A program made the translations under genes and the position numbers. From NCBI RefSeq assembly GCF_002886185.1, contig NZ_KZ614146.1:1906930-1970929 (forward strand): DNA of 64,000 nt, read 5' to 3'. This DNA is from Salipaludibacillus neizhouensis. Its GTDB lineage: Bacteria > Bacillota > Bacilli > Bacillales > Salisediminibacteriaceae. Position 1 is the first letter of the stretch. Each line of letters opens with the position of its first letter. The notes under the pieces are model-generated. The model did not search any database. It was given only the letters and a program-made list of their open reading frames with translations, and was not told the DNA's origin. Positions 1 to 21,663 of the stretch are shown here, one piece after another.

Positions 1-2
1 AT

Positions 3-386
3 ATGCTTGGTTTCTTTACAATGAAGTGGACAGTGAAGCTATGGAAACATCAAGAGTCAGGAGGAAACAAGGGACAAAGAAAAGGGAACTGGGGCGCATT
101 TATGCTCGGTTTTAGTTTTTCACTTGGGTTTTGCCCGACAATGTTCATTTTGTTTTTTGTGTTACTCATGCCAGTTACTTTTTCAACTCACTATGGAGTG
201 ATATTGCCAGGTGTTTTTGCGATAGGCACTGCAATTCCGCTCTTCATAGTAATTTTTGTGATTTGGTTTCTGGGAGCTGGAGGTTCCATATTAAAAAAAG
301 GGAGAAGGATAGGACGAGTGGTACAAAGTATTGCAGGGGGAGTCATGATCGTAATTGGTATATTAGACATTATGACGTTTTGGTAA
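3..386 (+). CDS. DsbD/CcdA-like membrane protein, 5' end outside window
   Basis: This is the C-terminal part of a polytopic membrane protein. The frame is open to the window edge, so the ATG at position 3 is probably internal. At least three hydrophobic segments are visible, at about residues 33-60, 66-90 and 108-126. The segment 'SLGFCPTMF' resembles the second half of DsbD/CcdA or UreH-like transmembrane domains, which carry a conserved Cys-Pro. Those families move electrons or metals across the membrane. The copper-type genes downstream suggest a thiol or copper role, which is inference. The CopC-CopD gene begins about 80 bases downstream on the same strand. Confidence 0.55.
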   Translation: MLGFFTMKWTVKLWKHQESGGNKGQRKGNWGAFMLGFSFSLGFCPTMFILFFVLLMPVTFSTHYGVILPGVFAIGTAIPLFIVIFVIWFLGAGGSILKKGRRIGRVVQSIAGGVMIVIGILDIMTFW

Positions 387-468
387 TTCATGGTGACCAA
401 AAGTTATACAAACCCTATCATATAAATCTTTGTTCTACCTACTCTATAAAACTAGGAAGTGCTTAAAA

Positions 469-2376
469 GTGAGAAAAACGAATTATTTCAAGGGAATATG
501 GATGATTTTAGCTTTATTTTTTTCTGTCTCATTCATTACTACAGAAGTTGAGGCCCATTCAGATATTGAAGAAATCAAACCAGATGTTATGTCAATGTTA
601 GAGGATATTCCTGATAAAATTGAAATCAGTTTTGGAGTACCTATTAACCTATATACTGATTCTATTCAATTGAAAGATTCACAAGGAACTTCTATTAAAA
701 TAGAAGAACCCACTTTAGAAAATAATAATAAAAATGTGTTTGTACCCATACCCGATGATTTGTCACCTGGTACATATACTGTTTTTATAAATGTTGTCGC
801 CATAGATGGCCATGAATTAAATGAACAATTCACATTTGAAATATCACAGTCGATAGAAGAAAAAGAAAAAGTTCAAATTGAAACTGAAAATCATCTACAA
901 TTTGAAAAAACAATTCCTCATGATGGGGCATTAATCAAAAAAAGACCGGAGAAAATTGAAATATGGTTTACAGGTGAAATTGAAAATGACAGTGACGTCT
1001 TATTTGGTTTATTTAACGACAAAATGAACCCAATAGACATTAAAAAGGAATATATTAATCCTGAAAATCCACGAAGTTATATTATTGAGCTTAATGAACA
1101 GTTAGAAAGTGGAACATATCAAGCAAACTGGTATACACAAGGGAAAAATGGGGGAGATAGTGGGATATTTTATTTTGCCGTTAATGAAGTAACATCCATT
1201 GTTAACTCAAAAGTTCCTATTGATAATGTAGATAATAATATTGGATTCAATAAAACAGCTAAATGGCTATCGTACGTTGGAGTTTTTGTGCTATTTGGAG
1301 TGATGTTTTTCCAGCTGTTTATATCAAAAGGAGCAGAATATCTCCAAAGATGGAACATAATGGTACGTCTGTTTTATATAACAGCATTAATAGGGTTTAT
1401 TTTATTACTAGTATTACGATTTAGAGAGTTGGAAAGTGTACCTTTTAATGAACTTTTGACCTTCCAGTTCATGTGGTTAACTTTCGCTCAATTCATTCTT
1501 CTAGTAACTGCTTATTGGATTAAGCGCATAAAATATCGTTTAATAGTTATTAGTTCAGTTATTGTATTATGGTCTGTTTCAGGACATTCCTCATTATCTG
1601 GTCATGGTGGCCTTTACGCTATCTTTTTCGATCTAATACATGTTTTCGCATCAGCTATCTGGATTGGTGGGCTTTTTGCTTTATTAATTATGATACCTAA
1701 AGATAATCCAATCGTATGGTTAAAAAAATATGGGAAACTTTATTCTGAGTTTGCTTTTTTAAGTATTATCTCCCTTTCTTTATCCGGGCTAGGAATGATT
1801 ATACTATACCTTCCCTCCTTTAGTTTAGAAAGTCTTATGGTTAGTAATTGGGGGAATTACTTGTTATTAAAAATAATTCTTTTTGTAATTATTCTTTTGA
1901 TTGGTTTACTGCAAAGGTACTTCCTGCACTCAAAAAAACAGCTTACTTCTAGTTTTTTATTGAGAACTAAAACAGAAATAATTATTGGTGTTATTATTAT
2001 TTTTTTAGCCGCTTCTTTAATGAGCTCTTCACCAAGAACTGCAGAGCAAGGCATTTATCCAAGCCAATTAGTTTCTGATCATGATGTCAGTGTTACAGTA
2101 GACATCACCCCTTTTAAAGTCGGATACGGTGATATGGTATTAGAATTTGATACGGAACAATCCATTGAAAGTGTAGATATTGTATTAACTATGCCACCTG
2201 ATTATGAAAGGGAGCAACGAGCATTTAATTTAGGGGATGGGAGGTTTCAAGTTACTGGAGCACTTTTGCACGCTCCTGGCACAATGAATCTTAATATTTC
2301 AGTAAAAACCTCCAGAGGTGACATAGTTGAAATCCCTTATATTATTCAAGTACCGGGAGAAACAATGGGTAATTGA
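469..2376 (+). CDS. CopC-CopC-CopD copper protein
   Basis: A secreted and membrane copper protein of about 635 residues. I chose GTG 469 over the longer TTG 430 because AGGAAG lies about 10 bases upstream and a signal peptide follows directly. Order: signal peptide ending 'VEA', a first CopC domain, a second CopC-like domain, about eight membrane helices (CopD), and a C-terminal beta-rich domain resembling YtkA. The mature first domain would begin with His and keeps an Asp-x-His pair ('IDGHE'), the copper-binding 'histidine brace' of CopC. The second domain lacks that pair ('GKNGGDSG'). B. subtilis YcnJ is a shorter relative with one CopC domain that is linked to copper uptake. The direction of transport here is not shown. 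Confidence 0.85.
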   Translation: MRKTNYFKGIWMILALFFSVSFITTEVEAHSDIEEIKPDVMSMLEDIPDKIEISFGVPINLYTDSIQLKDSQGTSIKIEEPTLENNNKNVFVPIPDDLSPGTYTVFINVVAIDGHELNEQFTFEISQSIEEKEKVQIETENHLQFEKTIPHDGALIKKRPEKIEIWFTGEIENDSDVLFGLFNDKMNPIDIKKEYINPENPRSYIIELNEQLESGTYQANWYTQGKNGGDSGIFYFAVNEVTSIVNSKVPIDNVDNNIGFNKTAKWLSYVGVFVLFGVMFFQLFISKGAEYLQRWNIMVRLFYITALIGFILLLVLRFRELESVPFNELLTFQFMWLTFAQFILLVTAYWIKRIKYRLIVISSVIVLWSVSGHSSLSGHGGLYAIFFDLIHVFASAIWIGGLFALLIMIPKDNPIVWLKKYGKLYSEFAFLSIISLSLSGLGMIILYLPSFSLESLMVSNWGNYLLLKIILFVIILLIGLLQRYFLHSKKQLTSSFLLRTKTEIIIGVIIIFLAASLMSSSPRTAEQGIYPSQLVSDHDVSVTVDITPFKVGYGDMVLEFDTEQSIESVDIVLTMPPDYEREQRAFNLGDGRFQVTGALLHAPGTMNLNISVKTSRGDIVEIPYIIQVPGETMGN

Positions 2377-2506
2377 TCTTATTGGGGCAATGAAGAATAT
2401 TTTGTGAGGATTTGATGGTGCAATATACAGTCTTTCAATAAAGAATAATCATTAAATGAATGAAACAGAAAATAAATACAAATACGGGATAAGTAAGGTG
2501 AACAGC

Positions 2507-3412
2507 ATGAATTCTATCGATATAGTAAACTGGGTAAATATCATTTTTACTATCCTAGCAGCTTTTATTACCTTAACAATTTGGTTTACACTTATTTACT
2601 CAGGGATTCGTCGTAACAATTATAAATGGACATTTAGATCCTTTACTGTACTTAATATGTTTTTTGCATGGATGCTAATAATTCTCATCCAAAACTGGCT
2701 TTCCAATCACTTTAATAACGATTTGTTTAATATAACATACAAAATTGGTTTCGTACTTTTACCACTAACTCTTATTGCTTTGTGGCGAGTGGTTTTCATG
2801 GCTACAGGCGATTATCTACGTTCCGTTCTTAAAAGAAAGTATTACCGAAATATATTTATATTAGTTATTTTTATTTACAGTATTGTTTATACATTCACCT
2901 CTGGTATGGTTACGGTCACTAGTTCTTCTGAGGATCTTGTACCACTTGAAAGGTATATTGAAATTACTCAAACCTATGGTCCGTTATCCCCTTGGCCAAG
3001 TATCGAATTTTGGTTCCCAACTGTCAATCTGTTCGGAACCATCTCACTTGCAGCTGTTCTTATGATGGTTACAATAACATCCATGTTTAGTATTACTATT
3101 ATCTTGATGGTTTACTACTGGAAGTTGAGAAAGAGGTTAAGCATGAAAACAGCAACCTCTACGGTTGGATCCGGTGTTTTTGCAACACTAACTTCCTTTG
3201 CTTGCTGTACATTTCCAGTTATTTACCCAATCCTCATCTTATTTTTTGGTTCGGCTACTGCAGAACCACTTTTACGCTTAATCACTAACGAATCGGGTTT
3301 GTTTATTAACGTCATGCAAATGGCCGTTCTATCCTTAATGGTTTTTTGCGTTATCTATACTGGAAATCGCATAAATTTGGAAGTGGCAAATCAGAGAATA
3401 CCACCGAAGTGA
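2507..3412 (+). CDS. six-helix membrane protein with Cys-Cys pair, unknown function
   Basis: I do not recognise this protein. It has about 301 residues and six or seven hydrophobic helices. ATG 2507 is preferred to ATG 2456 because AAGGTG lies six bases upstream and the first helix follows at once. An external loop at about residues 132-165 is rich in Ser, Thr, Trp and Pro. The penultimate region contains 'FACCTFPV', with adjacent cysteines at residues 233-234 at the start of a helix. Such a pair could bind a soft metal, as in MerT-type transporters. It lies 130 bases after the CopC-CopD gene in the same direction, so a copper-related role is plausible but unproven. Confidence 0.6.
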   Translation: MNSIDIVNWVNIIFTILAAFITLTIWFTLIYSGIRRNNYKWTFRSFTVLNMFFAWMLIILIQNWLSNHFNNDLFNITYKIGFVLLPLTLIALWRVVFMATGDYLRSVLKRKYYRNIFILVIFIYSIVYTFTSGMVTVTSSSEDLVPLERYIEITQTYGPLSPWPSIEFWFPTVNLFGTISLAAVLMMVTITSMFSITIILMVYYWKLRKRLSMKTATSTVGSGVFATLTSFACCTFPVIYPILILFFGSATAEPLLRLITNESGLFINVMQMAVLSLMVFCVIYTGNRINLEVANQRIPPK

Positions 3413-3570
3413 ATAACGTAGACTTGTGAAAATGCTATAAATCCACATTTATTTGAATACTTATAAGTCAATGGATGAGGAAAAAAAGATCGAACCGCTA
3501 ACCTTTTAAAACTTTGATACGAGGTCATGCTCTTTTTAACAAGTATAATAAAAACATAATGTTTTCATTC

Positions 3571-3602
3571 ATCACAGTTTTATCACATCTATGGAGTATA
3601 TT
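3571..3602 (+). promoter_or_regulatory. direct-repeat activator site and -10 of Met-rich peptide gene
   Basis: ATCACA occurs at 3571-3576 and again at 3582-3587, an 11-bp period typical of OmpR/PhoB-family regulators. A -10-like TATATT lies at 3597-3602. No good -35 is present, which fits activator dependence. The same arrangement with identical spacing precedes the response regulator gene at 4633. Confidence 0.6.
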
Positions 3603-3631
3603 GATAGATAACTGAAAGGAGGAAATACAAA

Positions 3632-3847
3632 ATGCTTAATAAAAAGTTAATGTTACTCATGTCATTTGTTCTCGCAGCTTTCTTGGTTATCGGAGGTACA
3701 GCTTTTGCTTCACCGATTGAAGGGAATGGAATGATGAACATGATTAATGGAAACGGGATGTCTAATATGATGGAAGCTATGAACTCTCCTCAAGGACAAG
3801 AAATGATAGATGGCTGTCAAGATTTTATGTCCTCCTATGATGACTAA
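3632..3847 (+). CDS. secreted Met-rich small protein
   Basis: A 71-residue protein with a strong ribosome binding site (GGAGG about 10 bases before ATG). A signal peptide (residues 1 to about 26, ending 'AFA') is followed by a mature part of about 45 residues with nine Met and one Cys, including 'GMMNMINGNGM'. Met-rich secreted peptides often bind Cu(I). Its neighbours and the promoter element shared with the two-component system support a copper sequestration or delivery role, but that is inference. The gene stands alone: it has its own promoter element and is followed by a terminator at 3886-3923. Confidence 0.7.
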   Translation: MLNKKLMLLMSFVLAAFLVIGGTAFASPIEGNGMMNMINGNGMSNMMEAMNSPQGQEMIDGCQDFMSSYDD

Positions 3848-3885
3848 GGCATTACCTAAGAATAAAATTTTCATGATATGTAGAG

Positions 3886-3923
3886 AAGAGGAAGGCTAAC
3901 ATTAAAAGGTCTTCCTCTTTTTA
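3886..3923 (+). terminator. rho-independent terminator of Met-rich peptide gene
   Basis: A perfect 9-bp stem (AAGAGGAAG at 3886-3894 with CTTCCTCTT at 3911-3919) is followed by T residues on the + strand. Confidence 0.8.
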
Positions 3924-4560
3924 TTAAAGGAATCTTATATCTACAGTTAATCTGAATAATAAAGATTTTAACTATAGGTAGGCCACTAATGGAAGAATAG
4001 GTACTAATGTTGGATAAGTCTTGTGATTATAAAGAAATTCAGAAGATAAATGATCTTATAAAACTTTGTTATACAGAATAATACTTTAATATCCTCATAA
4101 ACTAGAAGGGGTACAGCCAAAAAGGCTGCCTCGATTAATTAACCTTTCCTCCCTAAACACGCCTTCTATGGTTGCCCCTCCTATTTCAGATTAGCTCAAT
4201 ACTGGCTATCATTTCACGAATCCGTTTAAAATATATTGATCATTTCTTCTTACATTTCTGCTGGGTTGAGCATCTACACCATCTGTATTTCGGAGAACTA
4301 CCCAGCCTCACGACAATGCGAAAGATAATGTCATGGTTTATCTGTCATTGGAAGTTGGAGAATGTTAAGTTTATGATAAATTAAAACAGGAAGAGGGAAA
4401 GGTTCCATGATCTATATTGATCCTTCCCCTCTAAAATCCTTCTATCTATCGTAATTTTAATGTTAAAAATAAGACAGTTTTGGATCATTGTAGATATTTC
4501 ATTGAAAAAAGGACTATTTTCAGTCTGAAAACTGTTTTAGTTGCAAAATAAATTAAAATA
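3924..4560. other. gene-free stretch with weak hairpins
   Basis: No convincing gene. A short CAGCC-AAAAA-GGCTG hairpin lies near 4114-4128, and a longer imperfect hairpin at about 4391-4434 (GAGGGAAAGG with CCTTCCCCTC) could act as a terminator. An open frame at 4172-4384 has no ribosome binding site and unlikely composition. The region may be a decayed gene, but I cannot name it. Confidence 0.4.
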
Positions 4561-4592
4561 ATCACAGTTTCATCAAATTTGTTTTGTATAGT
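4561..4592 (+). promoter_or_regulatory. direct-repeat activator site and -10 of two-component operon
   Basis: ATCACA at 4561-4566 and ATCAAA at 4572-4577 have an 11-bp period. A -10-like TATAGT lies at 4587-4592. The distance from the repeat start to the -10 is 26 bases, the same as upstream of the Met-rich peptide gene. This suggests autoregulation by the response regulator that follows. Confidence 0.6.
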
Positions 4593-4632
4593 TAGAAGTA
4601 CATACTAATAAATAAATAATGAGGGATGAAAT

Positions 4633-5331
4633 ATGAGGAAATCTTTAGTACTAGTAGTTGATGATGAATGGAATATGAGAAACCTTTTACGTGTTTATCT
4701 TACTAAGGGTAACTTTGATGTAATCGAGGCCAAGGATGGTCATGAGGCATTGTCAACCATACAACACCAAAATATTGACTTGATTATTTTAGATATAATG
4801 ATGCCAGGAATGGACGGATGGGAAGTTTGTGCCCATATACGACAAACCAGCCGAACGCCTATTTTGATGTTAACAGCTCGAACTGAAACGAAAGATAAAG
4901 TGCAAGGATTAACTATGGGGGCGGATGACTATTTAGTCAAACCGTTCGAACCAGAAGAAATGATGGCGCGTGTAAAGGCGCTACTTAGAAGATCAGAGGG
5001 AACTAGTTCAAATTCGACCATCCTCACCATTCAGGATATGAAAATTGATCCTGAAAAGAGAAAAGCTTATATTCATGATCAACCATTCGAATTAACGCCC
5101 AAGGAATTTGATTTGCTATGTGTACTAATCAATCATCCTGGACGGGTCTTTAGCCGCGAAGTGTTACTGGATCAAATCTGGGGAAATGATTATTTCGGAG
5201 ATTTAAGAACAGTTGATACCCATGTCAAGAATGTCCGCGAAAAAGTTCGCAAAGCTGGTTTAACTTACAGTCCCATCCAAACAGTTTGGGGAGTGGGTTA
5301 TAAATCGAAGGATCTTGAGGAGAGAAAATGA
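4633..5331 (+). CDS. OmpR-family response regulator
   Basis: A cytoplasmic transcription factor of 232 residues. The receiver domain (about 1-118) has the acidic pair D10-D11, phospho-acceptor D54 in 'ILDIMMPGMDG', T81 and K103 ('VKPFEP'). A winged-helix DNA-binding domain follows (about 130-228), ending in the typical 'TVWGVGYK'. GAGGGATGA lies just before ATG 4633. The gene overlaps the sensor kinase by four bases (ATGA), so the two are translationally coupled. Likely targets are the direct repeats upstream of its own gene and of the Met-rich peptide gene. Confidence 0.9.
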   Translation: MRKSLVLVVDDEWNMRNLLRVYLTKGNFDVIEAKDGHEALSTIQHQNIDLIILDIMMPGMDGWEVCAHIRQTSRTPILMLTARTETKDKVQGLTMGADDYLVKPFEPEEMMARVKALLRRSEGTSSNSTILTIQDMKIDPEKRKAYIHDQPFELTPKEFDLLCVLINHPGRVFSREVLLDQIWGNDYFGDLRTVDTHVKNVREKVRKAGLTYSPIQTVWGVGYKSKDLEERK

Positions 5332-6752
5332 AAGTAAATCGAATTGCCATTAAATTAGGATCCACCATCACATTACTGCTGCTTGTCGTTTTACTTCCTT
5401 TAGGGTTTGTCATTGATCAGATATTTTCAGGTTTTTATTACGGTCAAGTTCAGGAAGACATTGATCAACAATCTTCCCATTATGCTACTGCTTTAGCCGA
5501 CCCCGAAAATGGGATGATGGTGCAGATGATAGAGATGATGGCCGAATTATCACAAGTGAAACTCTATATTGTGGATACTGAAGGCGAGATTATCGCCAAT
5601 TCAAGTGTTCCAGGATTATCTAAGGGATCTTTCATACCTGAAGAGGAAATGAACACTTTGTCTAGTGGTAACACCATTAAAAAAGAATATGAAGCTCGAA
5701 CAATGGGGAGTCGTTTTCTCGTCTCCGGTCAACCGATTCATGATGGGGATACTTTTTATGGTGGAGTCTATGTTTTATCAGCGGTAGACAGCATTTATGA
5801 ATCCATACAAAAGGTCAGACAAATGTTGGTTTTGTCTAGCATCGGAACTTTCTTTCTTGCGCTTGGATTTACTGTGGTTTTGTCTAGAAAACTCTCTAAA
5901 CCAATGGTACAAATGGAACAGGCCACTCGTAAAATTGCAAAGGGAGATTTAGATGCACGGGTGAAGGTTGTAACAGGTGATGAAACTGGTTCTTTGGCTC
6001 AGGCCATCAATGATTTAGCCGCTGATTTGAAGGTATATCGAGATACAAGAAGAGAGTTCCTCGCTAATATTTCTCATGAATTGAGAACCCCGATGACTTA
6101 TTTAGAGGGGTATACAAAAATCTTAAAAGAGAACTTGTATCAGAGTGAAGCAGAGAAAGAGCAATATTTAGATATTATCCAACAGGAATCAGTGCGACTA
6201 AACCATCTCATTAATGATTTGTTTGAACTATCTAAAATGGAAGAGGGAAAGTTCAGCCTGAATCAGGAGTGGATTGACCTCAGGGAAGTGGTGGAGAACA
6301 TTCATCACAAGGTTTCGTTAAAAGCAAAGGAAAAAGGAGTAATTTTTGCCTTTACTATTGAAGAAGATGTATCGTTGGTTTTTGGTGACGGTCTTCGAAT
6401 GGAGCAAATTTTCAGCAACTTATTAGATAATGCCATTCGATATACAGACCAAGGGATAATTAGTTTAAATATAAAAAGTTTACAACCTTACGAGATCTTA
6501 ATCGAGATTATAGACACGGGGAATGGAATCCCTAAAGAAGATCTTTCTTACATTTTCGAACGTTTTTACCGTGTGGAAAAATCTAGATCACGGGAGCATG
6601 GAGGTACCGGATTAGGACTGGCTATTGTAAAACAGTTGGTAGAAATTCAAGGGGGGACCATTCAAGTATTTAGTGAATTAGGGAAAGGAACCAGGTTTGA
6701 AATCAGGTTCCCTGTAACCTCAAAGAAAGGAAATGGGGGAGAAGAATTATGA
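5328..6752 (+). CDS. membrane sensor histidine kinase with Met-rich sensor loop
   Basis: A 474-residue kinase partner of the preceding regulator. TM1 is at about residues 9-31, followed by an extracytoplasmic sensor domain at about 32-164, TM2 at about 165-186 and HAMP at about 187-240. The H-box has His250 in 'NISHELRTP', the N-box is 'NLLDNAIRYT', and G-boxes 'DTGNGIP' and 'GGTGLGLAI' follow. The sensor domain has five Met within nine residues (63, 64, 67, 70, 71), a pattern expected of Cu(I) coordination. Copper sensing is therefore a reasonable hypothesis supported by context. The gene overlaps the next small one by four bases. Confidence 0.9.
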   Translation: MKVNRIAIKLGSTITLLLLVVLLPLGFVIDQIFSGFYYGQVQEDIDQQSSHYATALADPENGMMVQMIEMMAELSQVKLYIVDTEGEIIANSSVPGLSKGSFIPEEEMNTLSSGNTIKKEYEARTMGSRFLVSGQPIHDGDTFYGGVYVLSAVDSIYESIQKVRQMLVLSSIGTFFLALGFTVVLSRKLSKPMVQMEQATRKIAKGDLDARVKVVTGDETGSLAQAINDLAADLKVYRDTRREFLANISHELRTPMTYLEGYTKILKENLYQSEAEKEQYLDIIQQESVRLNHLINDLFELSKMEEGKFSLNQEWIDLREVVENIHHKVSLKAKEKGVIFAFTIEEDVSLVFGDGLRMEQIFSNLLDNAIRYTDQGIISLNIKSLQPYEILIEIIDTGNGIPKEDLSYIFERFYRVEKSRSREHGGTGLGLAIVKQLVEIQGGTIQVFSELGKGTRFEIRFPVTSKKGNGGEEL

Positions 6753-6955
6753 AAAGGATAGAATGGATTTTGGCGATATCATTGGTGGTGATTGGTCTGT
6801 CTTGCTTGACAATGTCTGCCAACTGGCTTGTGACACCCGATTCAATGAGACCTTATTTAAATACATTATTTCTCATTTGCTTCTGGGCATGTGTTCCAAT
6901 TATTGTCGCAACCTTGCTGTACTTAATCTTTAGGAAGAAAAAAGGTGATTCATAA
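6749..6955 (+). CDS. small two-helix membrane protein in kinase operon
   Basis: A 68-residue protein whose ATG overlaps the kinase stop (ATGA), making it the third gene of the two-component operon. Two hydrophobic helices (about residues 6-26 and 40-62) are joined by a short loop and followed by a basic tail 'FRKKKGD'. I do not recognise a family. Its place suggests an accessory or modulator of the sensor kinase, which is inference. GGGGGAGAAG before the start is a good ribosome binding site. Confidence 0.6.
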   Translation: MKRIEWILAISLVVIGLSCLTMSANWLVTPDSMRPYLNTLFLICFWACVPIIVATLLYLIFRKKKGDS

Positions 6956-7022
6956 ATATATTCCTAAGATGCACGGTATAACACGGACTAATGATAACAG
7001 ATTATTGAGGGGATGAATTTAT

Positions 7023-7256
7023 ATGATGAACATGATGAATGGGTCCATGATCTTAATGATGATTTTCTGCATTTTGGTCATAGGATTGGTGATTTACGGT
7101 GTATTTTCATTGCTATTTAAAGGTATTGAAAAGAAAAAAGAACCCATGCACCACGACGATAATTCAGCTTTTCAGATGTTAAAGGAAAGGTATGCAAGAG
7201 GGGAAATCAGTGAGAAAGAGTTTGAACTGAAAAAAGCAATACTTAAAGAGAAATAA
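7023..7256 (+). CDS. SHOCT-domain small membrane protein with Met-rich N-terminus
   Basis: A 77-residue protein. The N-terminus 'MMNMMNGSM' is Met-rich and resembles the mature secreted peptide encoded at 3632. One membrane helix spans about residues 9-32. The C-terminal 30 residues match the SHOCT pattern ('LKERYARGEISEKEFELKK'), a short motif found at the end of many membrane proteins and thought to mediate oligomerisation. GAGGGG lies upstream. It follows the two-component operon by 67 bases and is probably part of the same copper-like module. Confidence 0.7.
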   Translation: MMNMMNGSMILMMIFCILVIGLVIYGVFSLLFKGIEKKKEPMHHDDNSAFQMLKERYARGEISEKEFELKKAILKEK

Positions 7257-7440
7257 TCGTTGAAAAAGATACAAGTAGCCAGAAATTTGGTAATGGTGAC
7301 AGATGAAATTGCCATGGATTGTGAATATTAGAAAGTAGTAAATAGGCGAAAAAATCTTGTGGTACCAATACTTTGGAAAAGAGCTTGCTCAGTTTTCAGG
7401 GATAAGGTATGGATCAGCAAAAAAGGTTAAGTTAAACAAA

Positions 7441-7478
7441 CAAAAAAAGGAACCTAAAATAACGTTTTAGGCTCCTAA
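7441..7478 (-). terminator. terminator of YjcZ-type gene
   Basis: On the minus strand a long stem (AGGAGCCTAAAA pairing with TTTTAGGTTCCT) is followed by a run of seven T residues, just past the stop of the small gene at 7486. Confidence 0.8.
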
Positions 7479-7485
7479 ATATTTT

Positions 7486-7605
7486 TTAATAAGCTCCATA
7501 CCCGCCATAACTAGCACCGATAATTATTAGGAGAATAAAAAGTACCACTAATAATGCAAATCCTCCACCGTGACCATATCCTGCTCCTGCTACTGCACCA
7601 CTCAT
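7486..7605 (-). CDS. YjcZ-family sporulation peptide
   Basis: A 39-residue reading frame. The N-terminal part is Gly-rich ('[13 protein letters not shown]'), followed by one hydrophobic helix and a 'GGYGAY' end. This is the standard layout of YjcZ/YhcZ-type small proteins, which are widespread in spore formers and associated with sporulation. AAAGGAG lies about nine bases before the ATG, and a strong terminator follows the stop. The gene stands alone and faces the copper-like module. The exact role is unknown even for the family. Confidence 0.85.
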
Positions 7606-8029
7606 TTGAACAACTCCTTTTATTTTTTTTAGTGAAAATACCTTACAGTTACAAGATATGTTGATAAGAACCTTCTTGCTTGGATTTATACCTAAAAAAT
7701 ACTTGTGTAGGTTCCGTTGGTAAAATAAGCGATTCCAGGGTCTGTTGAGTTGTATTGGTTTGGTAAGAGCAAACCTTCAGTATATGGAGACGAAATGTTA
7801 GTTGGCTATACATATAAGCCGTTTGTGCATAGAATATTTTTGCATTTTCAACATCGCGATGCCCAGTTACAATATTATTTAATAAATTTTAAGATAGAAA
7901 GCAATTGGCCAATTTAGTGTGCTAATATTGGTATAGTTTGTGAAAAATATACTTAAACTAAAGTGCAGTTAGTAGAAGAAGAGAATCTTTAAACAAAGAT
8001 TTTTCTAGATGGCAATGGAGGAAGCAAGG
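7606..8029. other. gene-free stretch, possible decayed minus-strand gene
   Basis: No intact gene. On the minus strand, between about 7870 and 7690, stop-free strings in two frames look protein-like (for example 'IVTGHRDVENAKIF', then in another frame '[14 protein letters not shown]' before a stop). This may be a frameshifted remnant, but I cannot assign a family. Confidence 0.25.
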
Positions 8030-8893
8030 ATGCAGCAGTTAAAAAGAATAGGAAATTCATTTTGGTATATGACACCCGTTTCAGAGACTGACAGACCGAC
8101 TTTAGGAATGGTCGTTGGCAATGAAAGGAACTTGATGATAGATGCAGGTAATTCAGAAGCACATGCACGTTTGTTTTTAGAAAAGTTAAGTGAACATAAT
8201 ATTTCAAAACCAGATTTCGTTACAATAACTCATTGGCATTGGGACCATATTTTTGGATTGTCGGCCCTAAAAGATTCTTTGTCTATCTCATCTTCAGAGA
8301 CGAAAAAAGAAATAAATAAACTTACCGGTTATGAATGGACAGATAAGGCTTTAGACGAACGAGTTAAAGAAGGAACAGAAATTGAATTTTGTGCTAATTG
8401 TATAAAAAAAGAGTATGGTCAAGAAAGAAATATACATATTCTTTTGCCTAGATTAACATTTGATAATCAGCTTGAAATAGATCTTGGAGGTGTCACATGT
8501 GTGTTAAAACATGTGGGAGGTAACCATTCACAAGACTCTGTTGTTGTTTATATTAAGGAAGAAAGAATATTATTTCTAAGTGATAGTATTTATCCAGATA
8601 TTTTTTCCTCCAAAAACAACTATACAACGAAACGCACATTAAAATTAATACAAGAACTAGAAACATTTGATGCAGAAACATACATCCTTTCACATTCGAA
8701 AAATTTGAATAGAACTGAGTTTTTGCAAGAAATAGAGTTGTTAAAAGCAGTCGGATTCTATACTGAGAAATATAAAGGTGATACCGAGAAAATAAAGTCA
8801 AAGTATAAACAAACGCTAAATAGAGAGTTAAATGAAGAAGAATTACAAACAATAGAATATTTTGCAAATGGCTATGAAATGGATTATATCTAA
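8030..8893 (+). CDS. metallo-beta-lactamase-fold hydrolase
   Basis: A soluble hydrolase of about 287 residues. ATG 8030 is preferred to ATG 8009 because GGAGG (8017-8021) sits eight bases upstream of it and lies inside the longer version. The metal-binding motif 'THWHWDH' is present, followed by a later His in 'VGGNHSQDSVV' and an Asp in 'FLSDSIYPD', the expected ligand order of the fold. The C-terminus ('LNRELNEEEL') is a helical extension. The substrate cannot be deduced, as the fold covers lactonases, glyoxalases and nucleases. It stands alone, with about 400 gene-free bases on either side. Confidence 0.8.
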   Translation: MQQLKRIGNSFWYMTPVSETDRPTLGMVVGNERNLMIDAGNSEAHARLFLEKLSEHNISKPDFVTITHWHWDHIFGLSALKDSLSISSSETKKEINKLTGYEWTDKALDERVKEGTEIEFCANCIKKEYGQERNIHILLPRLTFDNQLEIDLGGVTCVLKHVGGNHSQDSVVVYIKEERILFLSDSIYPDIFSSKNNYTTKRTLKLIQELETFDAETYILSHSKNLNRTEFLQEIELLKAVGFYTEKYKGDTEKIKSKYKQTLNRELNEEELQTIEYFANGYEMDYI

Positions 8894-9307
8894 TACACAT
8901 GGAACTTTAGTAGTTATGGGATTACAATCGGATGGAGGGAGAGAAGTCGCTCTTTTTTCCCTTTTCTTTTTTACTAAAATCGTGTTTACATATAAGTCGA
9001 GTTTGCCCCATGTTAAATCCACTAATTAAATAAAATATATTGTTGCACATTCCGACGAGATCAGGACATTGAATTCGTTTTGTGAAATCACTGATAACGA
9101 TATAGATCGGATAAAATATTAAATAAATTAATTCCTCTATAGTTTCTTAGTTTCTTATACATATCCAATTTAATAGCGTTCATAATGTGTATATCAGTAT
9201 AATATGAGGCTTGTTTCAATTTCTCCTTTATTAGGAATTATTTTAATTTAACGAAACATTATGTATTGACAAAGACAACTAATAGCATATAGACTTATAT
9301 TATACAG
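8894..9307. other. gene-free stretch upstream of manganese transporter
   Basis: AT-rich DNA with no convincing reading frame. A weak hairpin with T-run near 8931-8965 may end the hydrolase transcript. Nothing else is recognised before the MntR-like boxes. Confidence 0.4.
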
Positions 9308-9328
9308 AAAGTTGATCTCAGGCAAAAT
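9308..9328 (+). promoter_or_regulatory. MntR-like box 1
   Basis: The imperfect palindrome AAAGTTGATCTCAGGCAAAA resembles DtxR/MntR-type manganese boxes (TTTTGCCT-AGG-CAA on the other strand). It lies about 130 bases before the ATPase start and 88 bases before a second, better copy. Confidence 0.55.
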
Positions 9329-9395
9329 ATATAACTATACACAACTTTTGTTATGCTTAAAGATACAAAAATTAGAATCGTGCTTTTTTTTACGG

Positions 9396-9418
9396 AAAAA
9401 GTTGACCTAAGGCAAAAA
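9396..9418 (+). promoter_or_regulatory. MntR-like box 2
   Basis: AAAGTTGACCTAAGGCAAAA is an imperfect palindrome (TTGACCT/AGGCAA) of the MntR type. It lies 40 bases before the ATPase start, where bound repressor would block the promoter or early transcription. It agrees with box 1 at most positions. Confidence 0.65.
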
Positions 9419-9456
9419 AAGTAGTGATGATCTACTTTTTAGTGAGGAGGAAAGAA

Positions 9457-10200
9457 ATGACGGCTATAAATGTAAAAGGTCTCTATGTTTCTTACTTTGG
9501 GAATGAAGCCATTAATAATATTTCATTCCAAACAAATACAGGGACAATTTTGGGAATCATTGGACCGAATGGTGCAGGGAAATCAACCTTATTAAAATCC
9601 TTATTAAGCCTGATCCCAACTGATAGAGGGGTTATTGAGTACTATGGAAAGCCAGTAAAAGAAACCAGAAACAAAATTGCTTACGTACCTCAACGTAGCG
9701 ATATCGATTGGGATTTTCCAATCACTGTGCTTGATACAGTTGTTATAGGAACATACCCAAAATTAGGTCTTTTTAAGAGACCGAAACAGAAGGATAGGGA
9801 ATGGGCTTATCATTGTTTAGAGAAAGTTGGAATGAGTGATTTTGGGAAACGTCAAATTGGTGAATTGTCAGGAGGGCAACAACAACGAGTATTTTTAGCA
9901 AGGGCACTAGCTCAAGAAACGGAAATGCTTTTTTTAGATGAACCTTTTGTTGGAATTGATGCATCAAGTGAACAAACAATCATTACGATTTTGCGAGAAT
10001 TAAGAAATCTAGGAAAAACGATTGTTATTGTACATCATGATTTAAATAAAGCAGCTTCTTATTTCGATGAGATACTATTGATAAATAAAGAATTAGTAAG
10101 TTATGGAAAGGCTCAGGACGTATTAAAACCTAATAATATAACAAAAGCCTATTCTGGCCAGCTTTCATTCTTAAAAGAACTTGGGGTGAATTTATCTTGA
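9457..10200 (+). CDS. mntB: manganese ABC transporter, ATPase
   Basis: The cytoplasmic ATPase of a metal importer, 247 residues from ATG 9457. I chose this start over GTG 9424 because GGAGG sits six bases upstream, and the longer version would begin right at MntR box 2. Walker A 'GPNGAGKST' (36-44), signature 'LSGGQQQR' and Walker B 'LFLDEPF' are intact. The stop overlaps the TTG start of the permease (TTGA). The order here is ATPase, permease, binding protein. Manganese as substrate is inferred from the boxes upstream and from the binding protein's ligands. Confidence 0.9.
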   Translation: MTAINVKGLYVSYFGNEAINNISFQTNTGTILGIIGPNGAGKSTLLKSLLSLIPTDRGVIEYYGKPVKETRNKIAYVPQRSDIDWDFPITVLDTVVIGTYPKLGLFKRPKQKDREWAYHCLEKVGMSDFGKRQIGELSGGQQQRVFLARALAQETEMLFLDEPFVGIDASSEQTIITILRELRNLGKTIVIVHHDLNKAASYFDEILLINKELVSYGKAQDVLKPNNITKAYSGQLSFLKELGVNLS

Positions 10201-11069
10201 ATTTAATTTCTTTTTTTGATGCAATTATCCAGTATAGTTTCTTGCAAAAAGCGTTAGTAACATCGGTTATGGTAGGCATTATATGTGGTGTAATTGGTTG
10301 TTTTATCATATTAAGAGGAATTTCGTTAATGGGAGATGCGATTTCACACGCAGTTCTGCCAGGTGTAGCGGTGTCCTATATGTTTGGGATAAATATTTTT
10401 TATGGTGCGGTATTTACTGGCTTATTAACAGCTATCGGGATAGGTTATATTAGCCAAAATAGTAGAATTAAGCATGATACATCTATTGGAATTATGTTTA
10501 GTGCGGCATTTGCCTTAGGAATAATTCTTATTACTATCATGCAAAGCAGTGCGGATTTGTATCATATTTTATTCGGGAATGTTCTTGCTGTTCCAGTAGC
10601 AGAGATGTGGATGACATTCATTGTAGGCGTCATTGTTCTAACAACCGTTTTTCTTTTTTATAAAGAATTGTTGGTTACTACCTTTGATCCAACGATAGCT
10701 GCAACATTCGGTTTACCAAATAAGCTTATACATTACATGCTAATGATACTTTTAACAATGACCACCGTTGCCTCTTTACAGACAGTGGGTATCATCCTAG
10801 TCGTTGCCATGTTGATTACACCTGCTGCAACCGCTTATCTTTTAACGAATAAGCTTTGGGTAATGATTATGTTATCTTCTGGATTTGGAGTTACTTCTTC
10901 AATAGTGGGAGTATATTACAGTTATACTTATAATTTATCATCTGGTTCAACCATTGTTTTAGTTGCAACGATATTATTTTTTATTGCGTTTTTCTTTTCG
11001 CCGAAACAAGGAATTCTATGGAAATCAATAAGAGCAAGAAAACATCGTTCACAATTAGCAAATAATTAA
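10197..11069 (+). CDS. mntC: manganese ABC transporter, permease
   Basis: An integral membrane permease of 290 residues with about eight hydrophobic helices, belonging to the ABC-3 family of zinc/manganese importers. It starts at TTG 10197, overlapping the ATPase stop by four bases, with GGGGTGA upstream. The family-typical 'GDAISHAVLPGVA' is present near residue 45. The C-terminus is basic ('IRARKHRSQLANN') and cytoplasmic. It is translationally coupled to the ATPase and followed after 15 bases by the binding protein. Confidence 0.9.
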   Translation: MNLISFFDAIIQYSFLQKALVTSVMVGIICGVIGCFIILRGISLMGDAISHAVLPGVAVSYMFGINIFYGAVFTGLLTAIGIGYISQNSRIKHDTSIGIMFSAAFALGIILITIMQSSADLYHILFGNVLAVPVAEMWMTFIVGVIVLTTVFLFYKELLVTTFDPTIAATFGLPNKLIHYMLMILLTMTTVASLQTVGIILVVAMLITPAATAYLLTNKLWVMIMLSSGFGVTSSIVGVYYSYTYNLSSGSTIVLVATILFFIAFFFSPKQGILWKSIRARKHRSQLANN

Positions 11070-11084
11070 TTAGGGGGAAGCATC

Positions 11085-12026
11085 ATGATAAAAAGAAAGA
11101 TATTCAGCGTATTAGGAATGTTACTACTGATTCTACTTACGGCCTGTGGAGAGAATCAGACAACTCAAGAAATAAAGGAAGAAAAAAAATTACAAATAGT
11201 TACGACCTACTCCATTATTTTCGACATTGTAGAGAATGTTGCAGGTGATCATGCAGAAATATATAGTATCGTTCCTATTGGTGCTGATCCTCACGAGTAT
11301 GATCCACTGCCAGAAGACTTAACAAAAACGACAGATGCGGATGTTGTTTTTTATCATGGTCTAAACTTAGAAGAAGGAAACGGTTGGTTTAACAAATTAA
11401 TTGATACAGCAGGAAAGTCTAAAAATGTTGTGCATCCTGTTAGTGAAGGTGTGGAGCCGATATACCTTGAAACACTAGGGCAAACGGATGATCCAGATCC
11501 ACATACATGGCTTGATGTAAGTAATGTCATTATATTTGCGGAAAATGTACGTGATCATTTAATAGAAGCTGACGTTGAAAATCAAGAGGTTTATAAGAAA
11601 AATGCCGAAAAATATATACAACAATTAGAAAAACTTCATACTAAAACTCTTGATAAAATACAGGACATTCCTGAGGAAAATCGTTTTCTAATAACGAGTG
11701 AGGGTGCTTTTAAATACTTTGAAAAAGCTTATAACATTGAGACAGGGTACATTTGGGAAATTAATTCAGAAAATGAAGGCTCCCCAAAACAAATGAGTGA
11801 CGTTGTTGATTTAATTAGGGAAAAGAATATTTCAGGATTATTTGTTGAAACAAGCATTGATCGCAGAAGTATGGAAACAGTTTCAATTGAAACAGGTGTA
11901 CCAATTGCAGGAGAGGTTTACACTGATTCATTAGGGAAAGAAGGAACTGATGGCGATTCTTATATTAAAATGATGGAATCAAATCTTAATGTATTATATC
12001 AAGGGTTAATTGATGGAGATGATTAA
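11085..12026 (+). CDS. mntA: manganese-binding lipoprotein
   Basis: The extracytoplasmic binding protein, 313 residues, with lipobox 'LTAC' (Cys21). The four metal ligands expected for the family are visible: His70 ('DPHEYD'), His140 ('DPHTWLD'), Glu206 ('SEGAFKYF') and Asp281 ('YTDSLG'). Glu rather than His at the third position is characteristic of manganese/iron rather than zinc binders. AGGGGGAAG precedes the ATG. It is the last gene of the operon. A decayed recombinase gene begins immediately downstream on the other strand. Confidence 0.92.
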   Translation: MIKRKIFSVLGMLLLILLTACGENQTTQEIKEEKKLQIVTTYSIIFDIVENVAGDHAEIYSIVPIGADPHEYDPLPEDLTKTTDADVVFYHGLNLEEGNGWFNKLIDTAGKSKNVVHPVSEGVEPIYLETLGQTDDPDPHTWLDVSNVIIFAENVRDHLIEADVENQEVYKKNAEKYIQQLEKLHTKTLDKIQDIPEENRFLITSEGAFKYFEKAYNIETGYIWEINSENEGSPKQMSDVVDLIREKNISGLFVETSIDRRSMETVSIETGVPIAGEVYTDSLGKEGTDGDSYIKMMESNLNVLYQGLIDGDD

Positions 12027-19686: not shown

Positions 19687-21663
19687 TTACTCCTCCTCTG
19701 TCACTAATAAGTTATCATTATCTAATATGTTGGTGTCCTCATCTAATCCAAAAGCAACATTTTTTTCAATCCATTTTCTTCGAGGCTCTACTTTATCACC
19801 CATAAGAGTGGAGACATGTCGTTCCGCTCTTGCTATATCATCAATCGTTACCCGGACTAGTGTTCTTGTTTCAGGATCCATCGTTGTCTCCCAAAGCTGC
19901 GTTGCATCCATTTCTCCCAGTCCTTTATATCGCTGAAGAATATAACCTTTACCGATTTTATCAATTGCTCCTTGTAAGCCACTTTCATCCCATGCGTACT
20001 CCACTTTTTCTTTCTTACCAGAACCTTTACTAACTTTGTATAAAGGCGGTAAGGCGATAAACACACGACCGCCTTCAATAAGTGGACGCATGTAACGGTA
20101 GAAAAATGTTAATATAAGCACTTGAATATGGGCACCATCTGTATCTGCGTCCGTCATAATTACTACTTTGTCGTAATTAATATTGGTGATATCGAAATCA
20201 GGACCTACATCGCCACCAATAGCATAAATCATTGTTCTAATTTCTTCGTTCTTCATAATATCTGCGAGTTTGGCTTTTTCGGTATTAATAACTTTACCGC
20301 GAAGTGGCAGAACTGCTTGGAATTTACGATCTCGCCCTTGCTTCGCAGAACCCCCGGCAGAGTCACCCTCCACTAAATAAAGTTCATTACGACTTGGATT
20401 CCTTGATTGAGCAGGTGTTAGTTTCCCACTTAGCATCGCATCTTTTCGTTTGTTTTTCTTCCCACTTCTCGCATCTTCACGAGCTTTACGTGCTGCTTCT
20501 CTAGCCTGTGAAGCTTTGACAGCTTTTCGTATAAGGTTATTACTAATCTCCGGGTTTTCTTCAAGGAAAAAACTTAGCTTTACGAAAACGACACTATCTA
20601 CAGCTGCTCTAGCCAATGGAGAGCCTAGCTTCCCCTTCGTTTGACCTTCAAATTGGAGCTTATCCTCTGGAACTCGAACAGAAATGATCGCAGTAAACCC
20701 TTCGCGAATATCACTTCCATCTAAGTTTTTATCACGTTCTTTTAGTAATTGCAGTTTTCTTGCGTGTTCATTAACAGCTCTAGTAACTGCTGCTCTCATT
20801 CCTAGTTCGTGAGTTCCGCCATCTTTTGTTCGAACATTGTTTACAAAAGATAGTGTATTTTCGGTGAACCCGTCATTATATTGAAAGGCGAAATCTACTT
20901 CTATCTCTTCATGTTCTCCTGTAAAAGAAACAACTGGATGAAGGGTATCTTTTTCCTCGTTTAAATATCCCACAAAAGCTTCTAAACCAGTTTCAAACAG
21001 AAATGATTCTGTTCCGTTTTCTTGACCTGGTCTCTCGTCTATTAGATCAATTTTTACCCCTTTTATGAGAAAAGCAGCTTCTCTGAGCCTTTCTGCTAAA
21101 GTATCATTATGATACGTGGTTGTATTAAATATCGATGCATCAGGTTTGAAATGAATGGTTGTACCTGTTTTTTTCGTTTTGCCGATAGTTTCCAATGTTG
21201 TAACAGGTTTTCCGCCATTCTCAAAGCGTTGACGGTATATAGAACCTTCTCGATATATCGTTACTTCAAGCCATTCGGACAGTGCGTTTACGACTGATGC
21301 ACCAACACCATGGAGACCACCACTAGTTTTATAGCCACCTTGACCAAATTTACCTCCAGCGTGCAGCACAGTTAGAATGACTTCCGGAGTTGGTTTACCG
21401 GTAGCATGCATGCCCGTCGGAAAACCTCTGCCCTCATCTTTGACACTGATACTGTTATCTTTATGTATTGTAACAATAATATGATTGCCATAACCTGCAA
21501 GGATCTCATCCACCGAATTATCAACAATCTCAAAAACTAGGTGGTGAAGACCGCGGTGATCTGTACTGCCTATGTACATACCTGGTCTTTTTCGGACCGC
21601 ATCAAGACCTTCTAATACTTGAATGGCATCATCATTATACTCGAATTCTTGTTTTTTGGACAA
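19687..21663 (-). CDS. parE: topoisomerase IV subunit B
   Basis: The ATPase subunit of topoisomerase IV, 658 residues from TTG 21663. I chose this start because AAAGGAG lies eight bases upstream and the length then matches the family (B. subtilis ParE 655). An upstream ATG at 21804 would add 47 residues without family support. The GHKL ATPase motif 'EIVDNSVDE', 'GLHGVGASVVNALS', the Toprim motifs 'EGDSAGGSA' and 'DADTDGAHI', and the C-terminal 'RYKGLGEM' are all present. A sigma-A-type promoter lies about 165 bases upstream. Confidence 0.95.
   Translation of the reverse strand: MSKKQEFEYNDDAIQVLEGLDAVRKRPGMYIGSTDHRGLHHLVFEIVDNSVDEILAGYGNHIIVTIHKDNSISVKDEGRGFPTGMHATGKPTPEVILTVLHAGGKFGQGGYKTSGGLHGVGASVVNALSEWLEVTIYREGSIYRQRFENGGKPVTTLETIGKTKKTGTTIHFKPDASIFNTTTYHNDTLAERLREAAFLIKGVKIDLIDERPGQENGTESFLFETGLEAFVGYLNEEKDTLHPVVSFTGEHEEIEVDFAFQYNDGFTENTLSFVNNVRTKDGGTHELGMRAAVTRAVNEHARKLQLLKERDKNLDGSDIREGFTAIISVRVPEDKLQFEGQTKGKLGSPLARAAVDSVVFVKLSFFLEENPEISNNLIRKAVKASQAREAARKAREDARSGKKNKRKDAMLSGKLTPAQSRNPSRNELYLVEGDSAGGSAKQGRDRKFQAVLPLRGKVINTEKAKLADIMKNEEIRTMIYAIGGDVGPDFDITNINYDKVVIMTDADTDGAHIQVLILTFFYRYMRPLIEGGRVFIALPPLYKVSKGSGKKEKVEYAWDESGLQGAIDKIGKGYILQRYKGLGEMDATQLWETTMDPETRTLVRVTIDDIARAERHVSTLMGDKVEPRRKWIEKNVAFGLDEDTNILDNDNLLVTEEE

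Follow-up and report, generated by a model that had tools for sequence, protein, structure and literature searches.

A candidate copper-stress regulon of Bacillaceae with a secreted Met-rich peptide and its own kinase-regulator pair

One of the closest described counterparts of the locus reported here is the copper-excess two-component system (TCS) CopRS of Corynebacterium glutamicum, whose stimulon includes, besides CopRS itself, TlpA, a multicopper oxidase, a secreted protein and, less strongly, ccsA/ccsB (PMC3140484). We analysed a 64,000-nucleotide stretch of DNA from Salipaludibacillus neizhouensis (hereafter the window; positions 1906930-1970929 of contig NZ_KZ614146.1 of the 5.5-Mb host genome), in which a secreted Met-rich peptide is encoded together with a CopC-CopC-CopD fusion (CopCD; gene copCCD) and a response regulator (RR)-histidine kinase (HK) pair. 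Our results point to a probable accessory regulon for copper stress in Bacillaceae, under the control of its own kinase-regulator pair. The parts of this module are of known kinds, namely a copper TCS, CopCD and thiol relays, and no description of the module or regulon was found among the top-ranked open-licence literature matches. Like C. glutamicum CopRS, this would be a Gram-positive copper-excess TCS; however, the operator of the former differs, it has CopB and CopO in place of a CopCD fusion, and its secreted protein is likened to our peptide by gene kind and not by sequence comparison. In Synechocystis, the periplasmic and partly extracellular Cu(I) binder CopM is encoded with and controlled by CopRS and alone confers copper resistance (PMC4335983). 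The module likewise encodes a candidate secreted Cu(I) binder with a candidate copper TCS, although CopM is larger (residues 25-196 were assayed) and works beside an RND pump, whereas the peptide has ~45 residues and matches no Pfam family above cut-off. In Bacillus subtilis, the CopC and CopD copper sites of YcnJ are required for oxidase function when copper is limiting, and YcnJ is genetically linked to CtaG (PMC13344008). The host, a Bacillus relative, resembles the YcnJ/YcnI system in having a CopC-CopD fusion with a C-terminal domain, but its fusion carries two CopC domains and neighbours a TCS with a multi-site element, whereas YcnJ is linked to the YcnK repressor. CopK of Cupriavidus is a small Met-rich extracytoplasmic Cu(I)-binding protein of the Gram-negative periplasm, which the peptide resembles by description in size, Met content and predicted location. 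Finally, mobile Gram-positive copper genes are also found in the horizontally acquired Staphylococcus and Listeria loci (copXL, copB-mco), whose CopL is an extracellular copper-binding lipoprotein; the titles and abstract openings listed for those loci name no TCS regulon of this kind, and our peptide, unlike CopL, has no lipobox.

The genes of the module lie on a single strand in the order ccdA, propeller, tlpA-dsbD2-copCCD-318, peptide and RR-HK-68aa-SHOCT (Table 1). They begin ~3.3 kb upstream of the window with the CcdA-like, propeller (NF045728), TlpA and DsbD_2 genes, which are numbered here in L002, a stretch of the host locus that reaches upstream of the window. The module is accessory in the host, since at E 1e-20 the copCCD protein and at E 0.01 the peptide were each found in only one of the 35 genomes of the host's family, the host itself. 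Elsewhere in the host, three ATPase loci scored above the cut-off of the Cu-ATPase model, one of them strongly (637 bits). A search for RNA families at gathering score found none in window 1-12000, and a sigma-70 scan of window 1-8000 found 27 matches against 33.9 expected.

We then characterized the promoter region of the peptide gene. The pattern read there is [T/C]CA[C/T]A-N7-CA, with a −10-like TATACT or TATAAT located 9 bases after CAAA; the complete element spans 32 bases and consists of half-sites at an 11-bp period, as is typical of OmpR-family regulators, plus the −10 box. A loose form of the element is present upstream of the peptide gene in 21/21 loci (the host, L032-L034, L054-L057 and L059-L071; the duplicate L058 was omitted, as was L035, where only 274 bases of the stretch precede the peptide and no hit was obtained), which are the same loci it was drawn from, against a chance expectation of ~0.11 matches per 120 bases. 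Leave-one-out scores ranged from 14.7 to 44.7 bits for 20 of these loci. When a matrix trained without the host was run over 76 kb of host sequence, exactly four sites reached 15 bits, against 0.075 expected from 40 dinucleotide shuffles, and all four lie in the module, preceding ccdA, tlpA, the peptide and the RR. Lowering the threshold to 10 bits gave 8 sites against 1.2 expected, among them a fifth module site, that of the propeller gene, at 10.8 bits. A pattern built from the five host sites (TCAYANWTYNNHCAMAN9TANNNT) matched the 5.5-Mb genome exactly five times, always in the module (its reversed control matched once); as these five matches are given by construction, the result is that the genome holds no further one. 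The exact core TCACAGTTTYATCA has two copies in the host genome, both within the module.

The element is also widespread around the relatives of the peptide. Across 24 loci (484,947 bases) we found 57 hits of at least 14 bits outside the training sites, against 1.8 expected, some of them not just upstream of a recognised gene; seven control loci with weak peptide matches (L044-L047, L049-L051) gave no hits of 14 bits. On balance, the genes behind the element form a copper, thiol and cytochrome set (Table 1). Two observations stand beside these: in the Metabacillus plasmid locus L032, an 18.1-bit element-like site lies 18 bp upstream of a Rieske 2Fe-2S protein gene (L032:2091-2588, minus strand), and in Shouchella (L071:338-12447) element-like sites precede Lgt, cupredoxin-like lipoprotein, ZnuC-type, ZnuA-type and SHOCT genes.

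To describe the neighbourhood of the peptide gene we counted its neighbours in 26 loci, some of which are cut by contig or stretch ends. The duplicate L058 was dropped, L041/L042 and L056/L060 are pairs from single genomes, and L040 (genome G363) and L048 (G152), where module genes accompany a peptide that is broken or degenerate, were left out. The most frequent neighbours were SHOCT (22), the kinase (20), the RR and the propeller (19 each) and CopCD (18), followed by DsbD_2 (13), the 68-aa protein (12) and CcdA, TlpA and CtaG (9 each). Module-type CopCD, SHOCT, RR or kinase genes occur in 25/26 loci, the exception being L062, with a different kinase-regulator pair, a propeller and a YdhK-like gene. 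Conservation of the neighbourhood had been proposed in the initial annotation as a check on its copper reading; these counts show it to be conserved and copper-linked, and the homologues do not consistently lie beside non-metal genes. P-type ATPases or CopZ-like genes and Lgt each recur in 8 loci, MerR and a methyltransferase in 5 each, and a small 'CPLMMLFCMKGMF' membrane protein in 8; four of the six neighbouring ATPases scanned were best classified as Cu-type. L061 further carries a pyridine nucleotide-disulfide oxidoreductase that resembles a mercuric reductase and has an HMA match close to the cut-off. Genes of cytochrome c maturation are another recurrent group. L055 and L057 carry a ResB gene (Pfam) and, after it, a gene for cytochrome c assembly (Pfam-supported for L057), TlpA and CcdA; the last three are also seen at the edge of L061, and in the plasmid loci L032 and L033 the System I genes CcmE, F, H, A, B and C lie directly upstream, with CcmD annotated in L032. 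System I is already known in Bacillus, since B. azotoformans has ccmEFHABC near nrfAH (PMC3475470). Altogether, the module occurs in about a dozen genera of Bacillaceae as well as on plasmids. As separate observations, the 20-kb loci L057 (recorded as Anoxybacillus rupiensis) and L058 (Parageobacillus caldoxylosilyticus) are identical at 20,209 of 20,210 bases, which reflects either a very recent transfer or a labelling problem; a family of small CPLMM..CMKGMF membrane proteins lies near the module at L060:3590-3870 and in 7 other loci; and a class I S-adenosylmethionine methyltransferase with a CDGCH motif adjoins the peptide in L041, L042, L065, L066 and L067.

By its sequence, the peptide is a member of a conserved secreted family. 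Its signal peptide reads as lacking a lipobox, and after a plausible cleavage site 9 of the 45 residues are Met, as had been proposed, compared with a background of 2.48% Met in 371 open reading frames (ORFs) of at least 150 aa from related loci (binomial P 1.4e-6). The family core MxxxCxxxM is present in 25/26 copies, and its i, i+4, i+8 spacing is as expected on one helix face. An alignment of 17 peptides has G42, M43, M46, M47, M50, S52, G55, M58, C62 and M66 invariant in the mature part (window numbering), while another of 11 members, a partly different set with more divergent plasmid and alkaliphile members, retains fewer invariant Met columns but keeps the Cys, a Phe and the next Met. 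The length of the N-terminal Met repeat varies between relatives. No family of Pfam or NCBIfam reached its cut-off with the peptide, and a sequence search of the PDB gave no relative up to E 10. The selenite/tellurite ExtJ family was considered and rejected, its match (E 0.25) being confined to residues 4-41, most of them signal peptide. Of 397 genomes sampled from the order, 9 gave matches at E 1e-3 or better, one of which (L044, genome G332) has no element hit and was excluded from the family. Four plasmid records also matched: Metabacillus pB218 (E 2e-8), Cytobacillus firmus p1 (E 1e-6), Alkalihalophilus pseudofirmus pBpOF4-01 (tblastn E 8) and Staphylococcus equorum plas2 (E 1), the latter two being kept as family because of their neighbours and core motif, although the S. 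equorum copy retains little beyond MMNACMNFM. A collection of 84,980 genomes holds at least 18 peptide loci, a lower bound because the method reaches close relatives only, and 57 pattern matches in viral contigs included no relative of the peptide. As observations apart, in two module-like loci the peptide gene is either split over two frames, with the element kept upstream (L040:9874-10300), or degenerate, with an element before DsbD_2 (L048:7826-10115); to judge from these sequences, it looks as if the peptide can be lost.

The kinase-regulator pair has the layout of copper TCSs of the CusRS/CopRS kind, with an OmpR-family RR and a kinase with an extracytoplasmic sensor domain, and, as in such systems, an operator-like element appears to be common to its own operon and to copper genes. 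An RTVDTHVKN-type segment is conserved in those module regulators that are intact. The positions of the genes and the Met clusters of the peptide, the kinase and the SHOCT protein were as first described; in particular, the kinase sensor does carry five Met in nine residues (MMVQMIEMM). A 13-residue stretch with at least five Met occurs in 7 of the 371 ORFs, so that the cluster alone is rare but not unique. One Met of the sensor domain is kept in all 17 full-length kinases, the host included (column M37 of the 12-member alignment A4), and the invariant columns of this alignment include no His or Cys. In the model of the sensor domain (predicted local distance difference test, pLDDT, 86.1; predicted template-modelling score, pTM, 0.80) the Met cluster lies on a helix at residues 34-44. 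Its nearest folds are WalK (Z 13.6, root-mean-square deviation (rmsd) 3.0 over 131 residues) and CitA (Z 13.2); silver-bound CusS (5ku5) ranks below WalK (Z 9.7, rmsd 2.8, 112 residues), and such fold likeness leaves the ligand undefined.

CopCD consists of a CopC domain, a second CopC-like domain, CopD and a conserved C-terminal domain, with Pfam scores of 75.6 bits for CopC (cut-off 23.3, two stretches) and 42.3 bits for CopD (cut-off 32.1). It does not reach the NCBIfam equivalog cut-offs set for CopC (70.4 vs 95) and CopD (69.8 vs 195) as separate proteins, and Pfam gave no YtkA match in the host or L032 protein, the conservation of the C-terminal domain notwithstanding. A His near the predicted mature N-terminus, as in the Cu(II) site of CopC, is found in all 15 relatives with an intact N-terminus, and the CopC domain of YcnJ (9c14) is a weak PDB match (E 0.0016). 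By analogy, this likeness to YcnJ supports a role in copper transport, whatever its direction and condition. Among the remaining proteins, relatives of the 68-aa protein directly follow the kinase in the gene orders listed. The SHOCT protein begins with MMNMMNGSM, as described at the outset; Met-rich N-termini are also present in the SHOCT relatives listed. The SHOCT gene often immediately precedes that of the peptide, the host being an exception. A Cys-Cys membrane protein of 318 aa is encoded where the initial annotation placed it, but it occurs in only 2/26 loci and we rejected it as a core part of the module; no Pfam family matched it above cut-off, nor any NCBIfam family up to E 1. For the propeller, a sequence search of the PDB gave no match, and the name glycosylhydrolase carried by NF045728 is a family label, not proof of enzyme activity.

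These results are best explained by a mechanism in which the kinase, through an extracytoplasmic domain with a predicted WalK/CitA-like fold, would react either to copper (or silver) present in excess on the outside of the membrane or to the resulting damage. The RR would then bind the 11-bp-period half-sites, standing in for a −35 box, at five putative host transcription units: ccdA; the F510_1955 propeller; tlpA-dsbD2-copCCD-318; the peptide; and RR-HK-68aa-SHOCT. The exported MxxxCxxxM peptide may bind and buffer Cu(I) outside the membrane, CcdA, TlpA and DsbD_2 may hold thiols outside the cytoplasm, among them those of cytochrome c maturation, in the reduced state during copper stress, and the YcnJ-like CopCD may move or hand on copper, in other genomes with CtaG or a multicopper oxidase. 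A bolder proposal, which we put forward as possible but doubtful, is that in Gram-positive bacteria one dedicated TCS couples copper buffering by the secreted peptide to a spare, copper-inducible set for thiol reduction and cytochrome c maturation (CcdA/TlpA/DsbD_2, ResBC or complete Ccm), which would allow respiration to be restored during an attack by copper, and that the copper load of the peptide may feed back on the kinase via the SHOCT or the 68-aa protein. A copper-stress regulon would tie copper stress to cytochrome c maturation, as is reported for the periplasm of Rubrivivax in a statement cited in PMC6247083. More generally, a TCS regulon with its own operator would give the Bacillus group an extracytoplasmic copper response. 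The operator provides lists of targets open to direct test, and the peptide, at 45 residues, is a candidate Cu(I) binder that lends itself to synthesis. The copper regulators of Bacillus that we know of are cytoplasmic (CsoR, YcnK).

Several findings weigh against a copper-stress regulon. At the promoters, the peptide site of L071 reached only 5.4 bits in the leave-one-out test, relaxing the threshold brings in 1 hit outside the host module at 12 bits and 3 at 10 bits, and the 14-base core allowing two mismatches was found twice in the window, both copies exact, against 1.77 expected by chance; moreover, element hits precede genes without an evident copper role, namely YwmB (L033), a methyltransferase (L066) and D-Ala carboxypeptidase (L071, 11 bits). 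Within the peptide family, L071 stops before MxxxCxxxM, and the AlphaFold2 model (helices 41-51 and 53-70; pLDDT 68.5, pTM 0.32) is too weak to use as a fold prediction. CopCD was not found in 8/26 loci, some of them cut, the Asp-Gly-His of its first CopC domain is present in only 3/15 relatives, the host included, and two of the six ATPases scanned were best as Zn/Cd-type. The maturation genes also have no obvious local client, as an ORF with two CxxCH motifs was found in L060 only. The RR and the kinase both score below the cut-offs of the NCBIfam heavy-metal TCS models (TIGR01387, 191.4 vs 279.2 bits; TIGR01386, 177.8 vs 292.55 bits). Lastly, at least five Met occur in the sensor fragment of only 5/17 kinases, so the cluster is clade-specific: we rejected a Met-cluster copper site as a feature of the kinase family, which weakens the early suggestion of copper sensing through it, and because a single Met is kept while the dense cluster is limited to the host and a few others, we do not claim direct copper binding by the kinase. 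Of the Gram-positive Cu(I) handling system first envisaged, what stands is the copper-linked conserved neighbourhood and a peptide family that keeps its Met and one Cys. The genes upstream of the window, the shared operator and the connection with thiol-redox and cytochrome c maturation genes come in addition to that first account.

A serious rival, which we hold to be unlikely, is copper acquisition for oxidase assembly, in which scarcity would induce the regulon, a chalkophore-like peptide, CopCD and CtaG would import copper for heme-copper oxidases, and the extra cytochrome c maturation genes would match. This would agree with the support of growth under copper starvation by B. subtilis YcnJ (CopC-CopD-YtkA), which may work with CtaG (PMC13344008), with CtaG in 9 of the loci, and with the ResB and cupredoxin-like lipoprotein genes behind the element. 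However, the host already holds another CopD and two CtaG genes elsewhere, and no oxidase subunit gene was noticed in passing, most flanking ORFs being unsearched. We prefer the copper-excess reading because Cu-type ATPases, MerR-family regulators and an element-linked multicopper oxidase accompany the module, and because the C. glutamicum copper-excess stimulon has the same gene kinds. It is improbable, in our estimate, that the kinase responds to envelope stress, of disulfides or of cytochrome c maturation, instead of copper, with copper genes as only some of its targets: element-linked CcdA, TlpA, DsbD_2, ResB and Ccm genes and a sensor domain without invariant His or Cys would suit this, whereas the peptide, CopCD, CtaG and the multicopper oxidase fit copper. 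The two readings overlap, as copper reportedly affects cytochrome c assembly in Rubrivivax (PMC6247083). Still less probable is that the operator is that of ResD, PhoP or another core regulator, not that of the RR of the module. Boxes of the ResD/PhoP type do resemble the half-site, and ResD controls res and cta genes; nevertheless, the sites of a core regulator should also occur elsewhere, while the five-site pattern has no other match in the host, and the promoter of the RR itself carries the site. Finally, the peptide being small, secreted and under its own promoter element, it could be a pheromone-like signal or a cell-wall protein without a metal role, but this is very improbable given the conserved Met/Cys pattern and copper context, and a length and Met-repeat number that vary among relatives would be unusual for a pheromone.

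Table 1. Features of the module in the host and of element-linked genes in related loci (L numbers); coordinates without a prefix are window positions.
Feature	Location	Remarks
CcdA-type gene	L002:8869-9474 as listed	frame extends ~37 codons further up without ATG
Propeller-family protein NF045728 (F510_1955 family glycosylhydrolase)	L002:9568-10731	248.5 bits, cut-off 175
TlpA	L002:10929-11453	
DsbD_2-type membrane protein	L002:11573-12316; C-terminal half at 1..386 (+)	Pfam DsbD_2 47 bits, cut-off 24.9
CopC-CopC'-CopD fusion with further C-terminal domain	469..2376 (+)	candidate YcnJ-like copper transporter; Pfam CopC and CopD
318-aa membrane protein with Cys-Cys	2456..3412 (+)	host-specific extra
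Proposed peptide promoter operator and −10 element	3571..3602 (+)	17.0 bits, matrix trained without host genome
Secreted Met-rich peptide, 71 aa, one conserved Cys	3632..3847 (+)	family alignments A1 and A3
Proposed RR-kinase operon operator and −10 element	4561..4592 (+)	27.5 bits, out-of-sample matrix
OmpR-family RR	4633..5331 (+)	Pfam Response_reg, Trans_reg_C; proposed operator binder
Sensor histidine kinase	5328..6752 (+)	HAMP, HisKA, HATPase_c; extracytoplasmic PAS/Cache-like domain 5418-5813
68-aa membrane protein	6749..6955 (+)	start overlaps kinase stop codon
SHOCT membrane protein, Met-rich N-terminus	7023..7256 (+)	Pfam SHOCT 32.6 bits, cut-off 27
System I cytochrome c maturation operons	L032:3058-9480 (Metabacillus plasmid); L033:3083-9378 (Cytobacillus plasmid)	element-linked CcmE operon; 28-29-bit element just upstream of CcmE
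CtaG	L057, L060, L068; shortened CtaG-like frame in L054	element-linked
ResB	L055, L057; broken ResB-like frame in L059	element-linked
DsbD_2	L041, L056, L059, L064, L068	element-linked
CopCD	L068	element-linked
SHOCT	L034, L043, L069, L070, L071	element-linked
Propeller and RR	L067	element-linked
Lgt	L055, L059, L071	element-linked
Multicopper oxidase	L057	element-linked; site overlaps listed ORF start by 4 bases, so true start must be further in
Lipoprotein, CuA-type cupredoxin-like by sequence reading	L071	element 35.6 bits; Pfam 13.6 bits, cut-off 27
Small CPLMM protein before MerR and CopA	L060	follows 31-bit element
Second kinase pair	L032, L062	element-linked

Downstream of the module in the window, a short Gly-rich hydrophobic frame of ~39 residues lies on the minus strand at ~7487-7605, which appears to resemble small YjcZ-type sporulation proteins. 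No element was found just upstream of the host ZnuA-type ABC operon (9424-12026), which adjoins the module.

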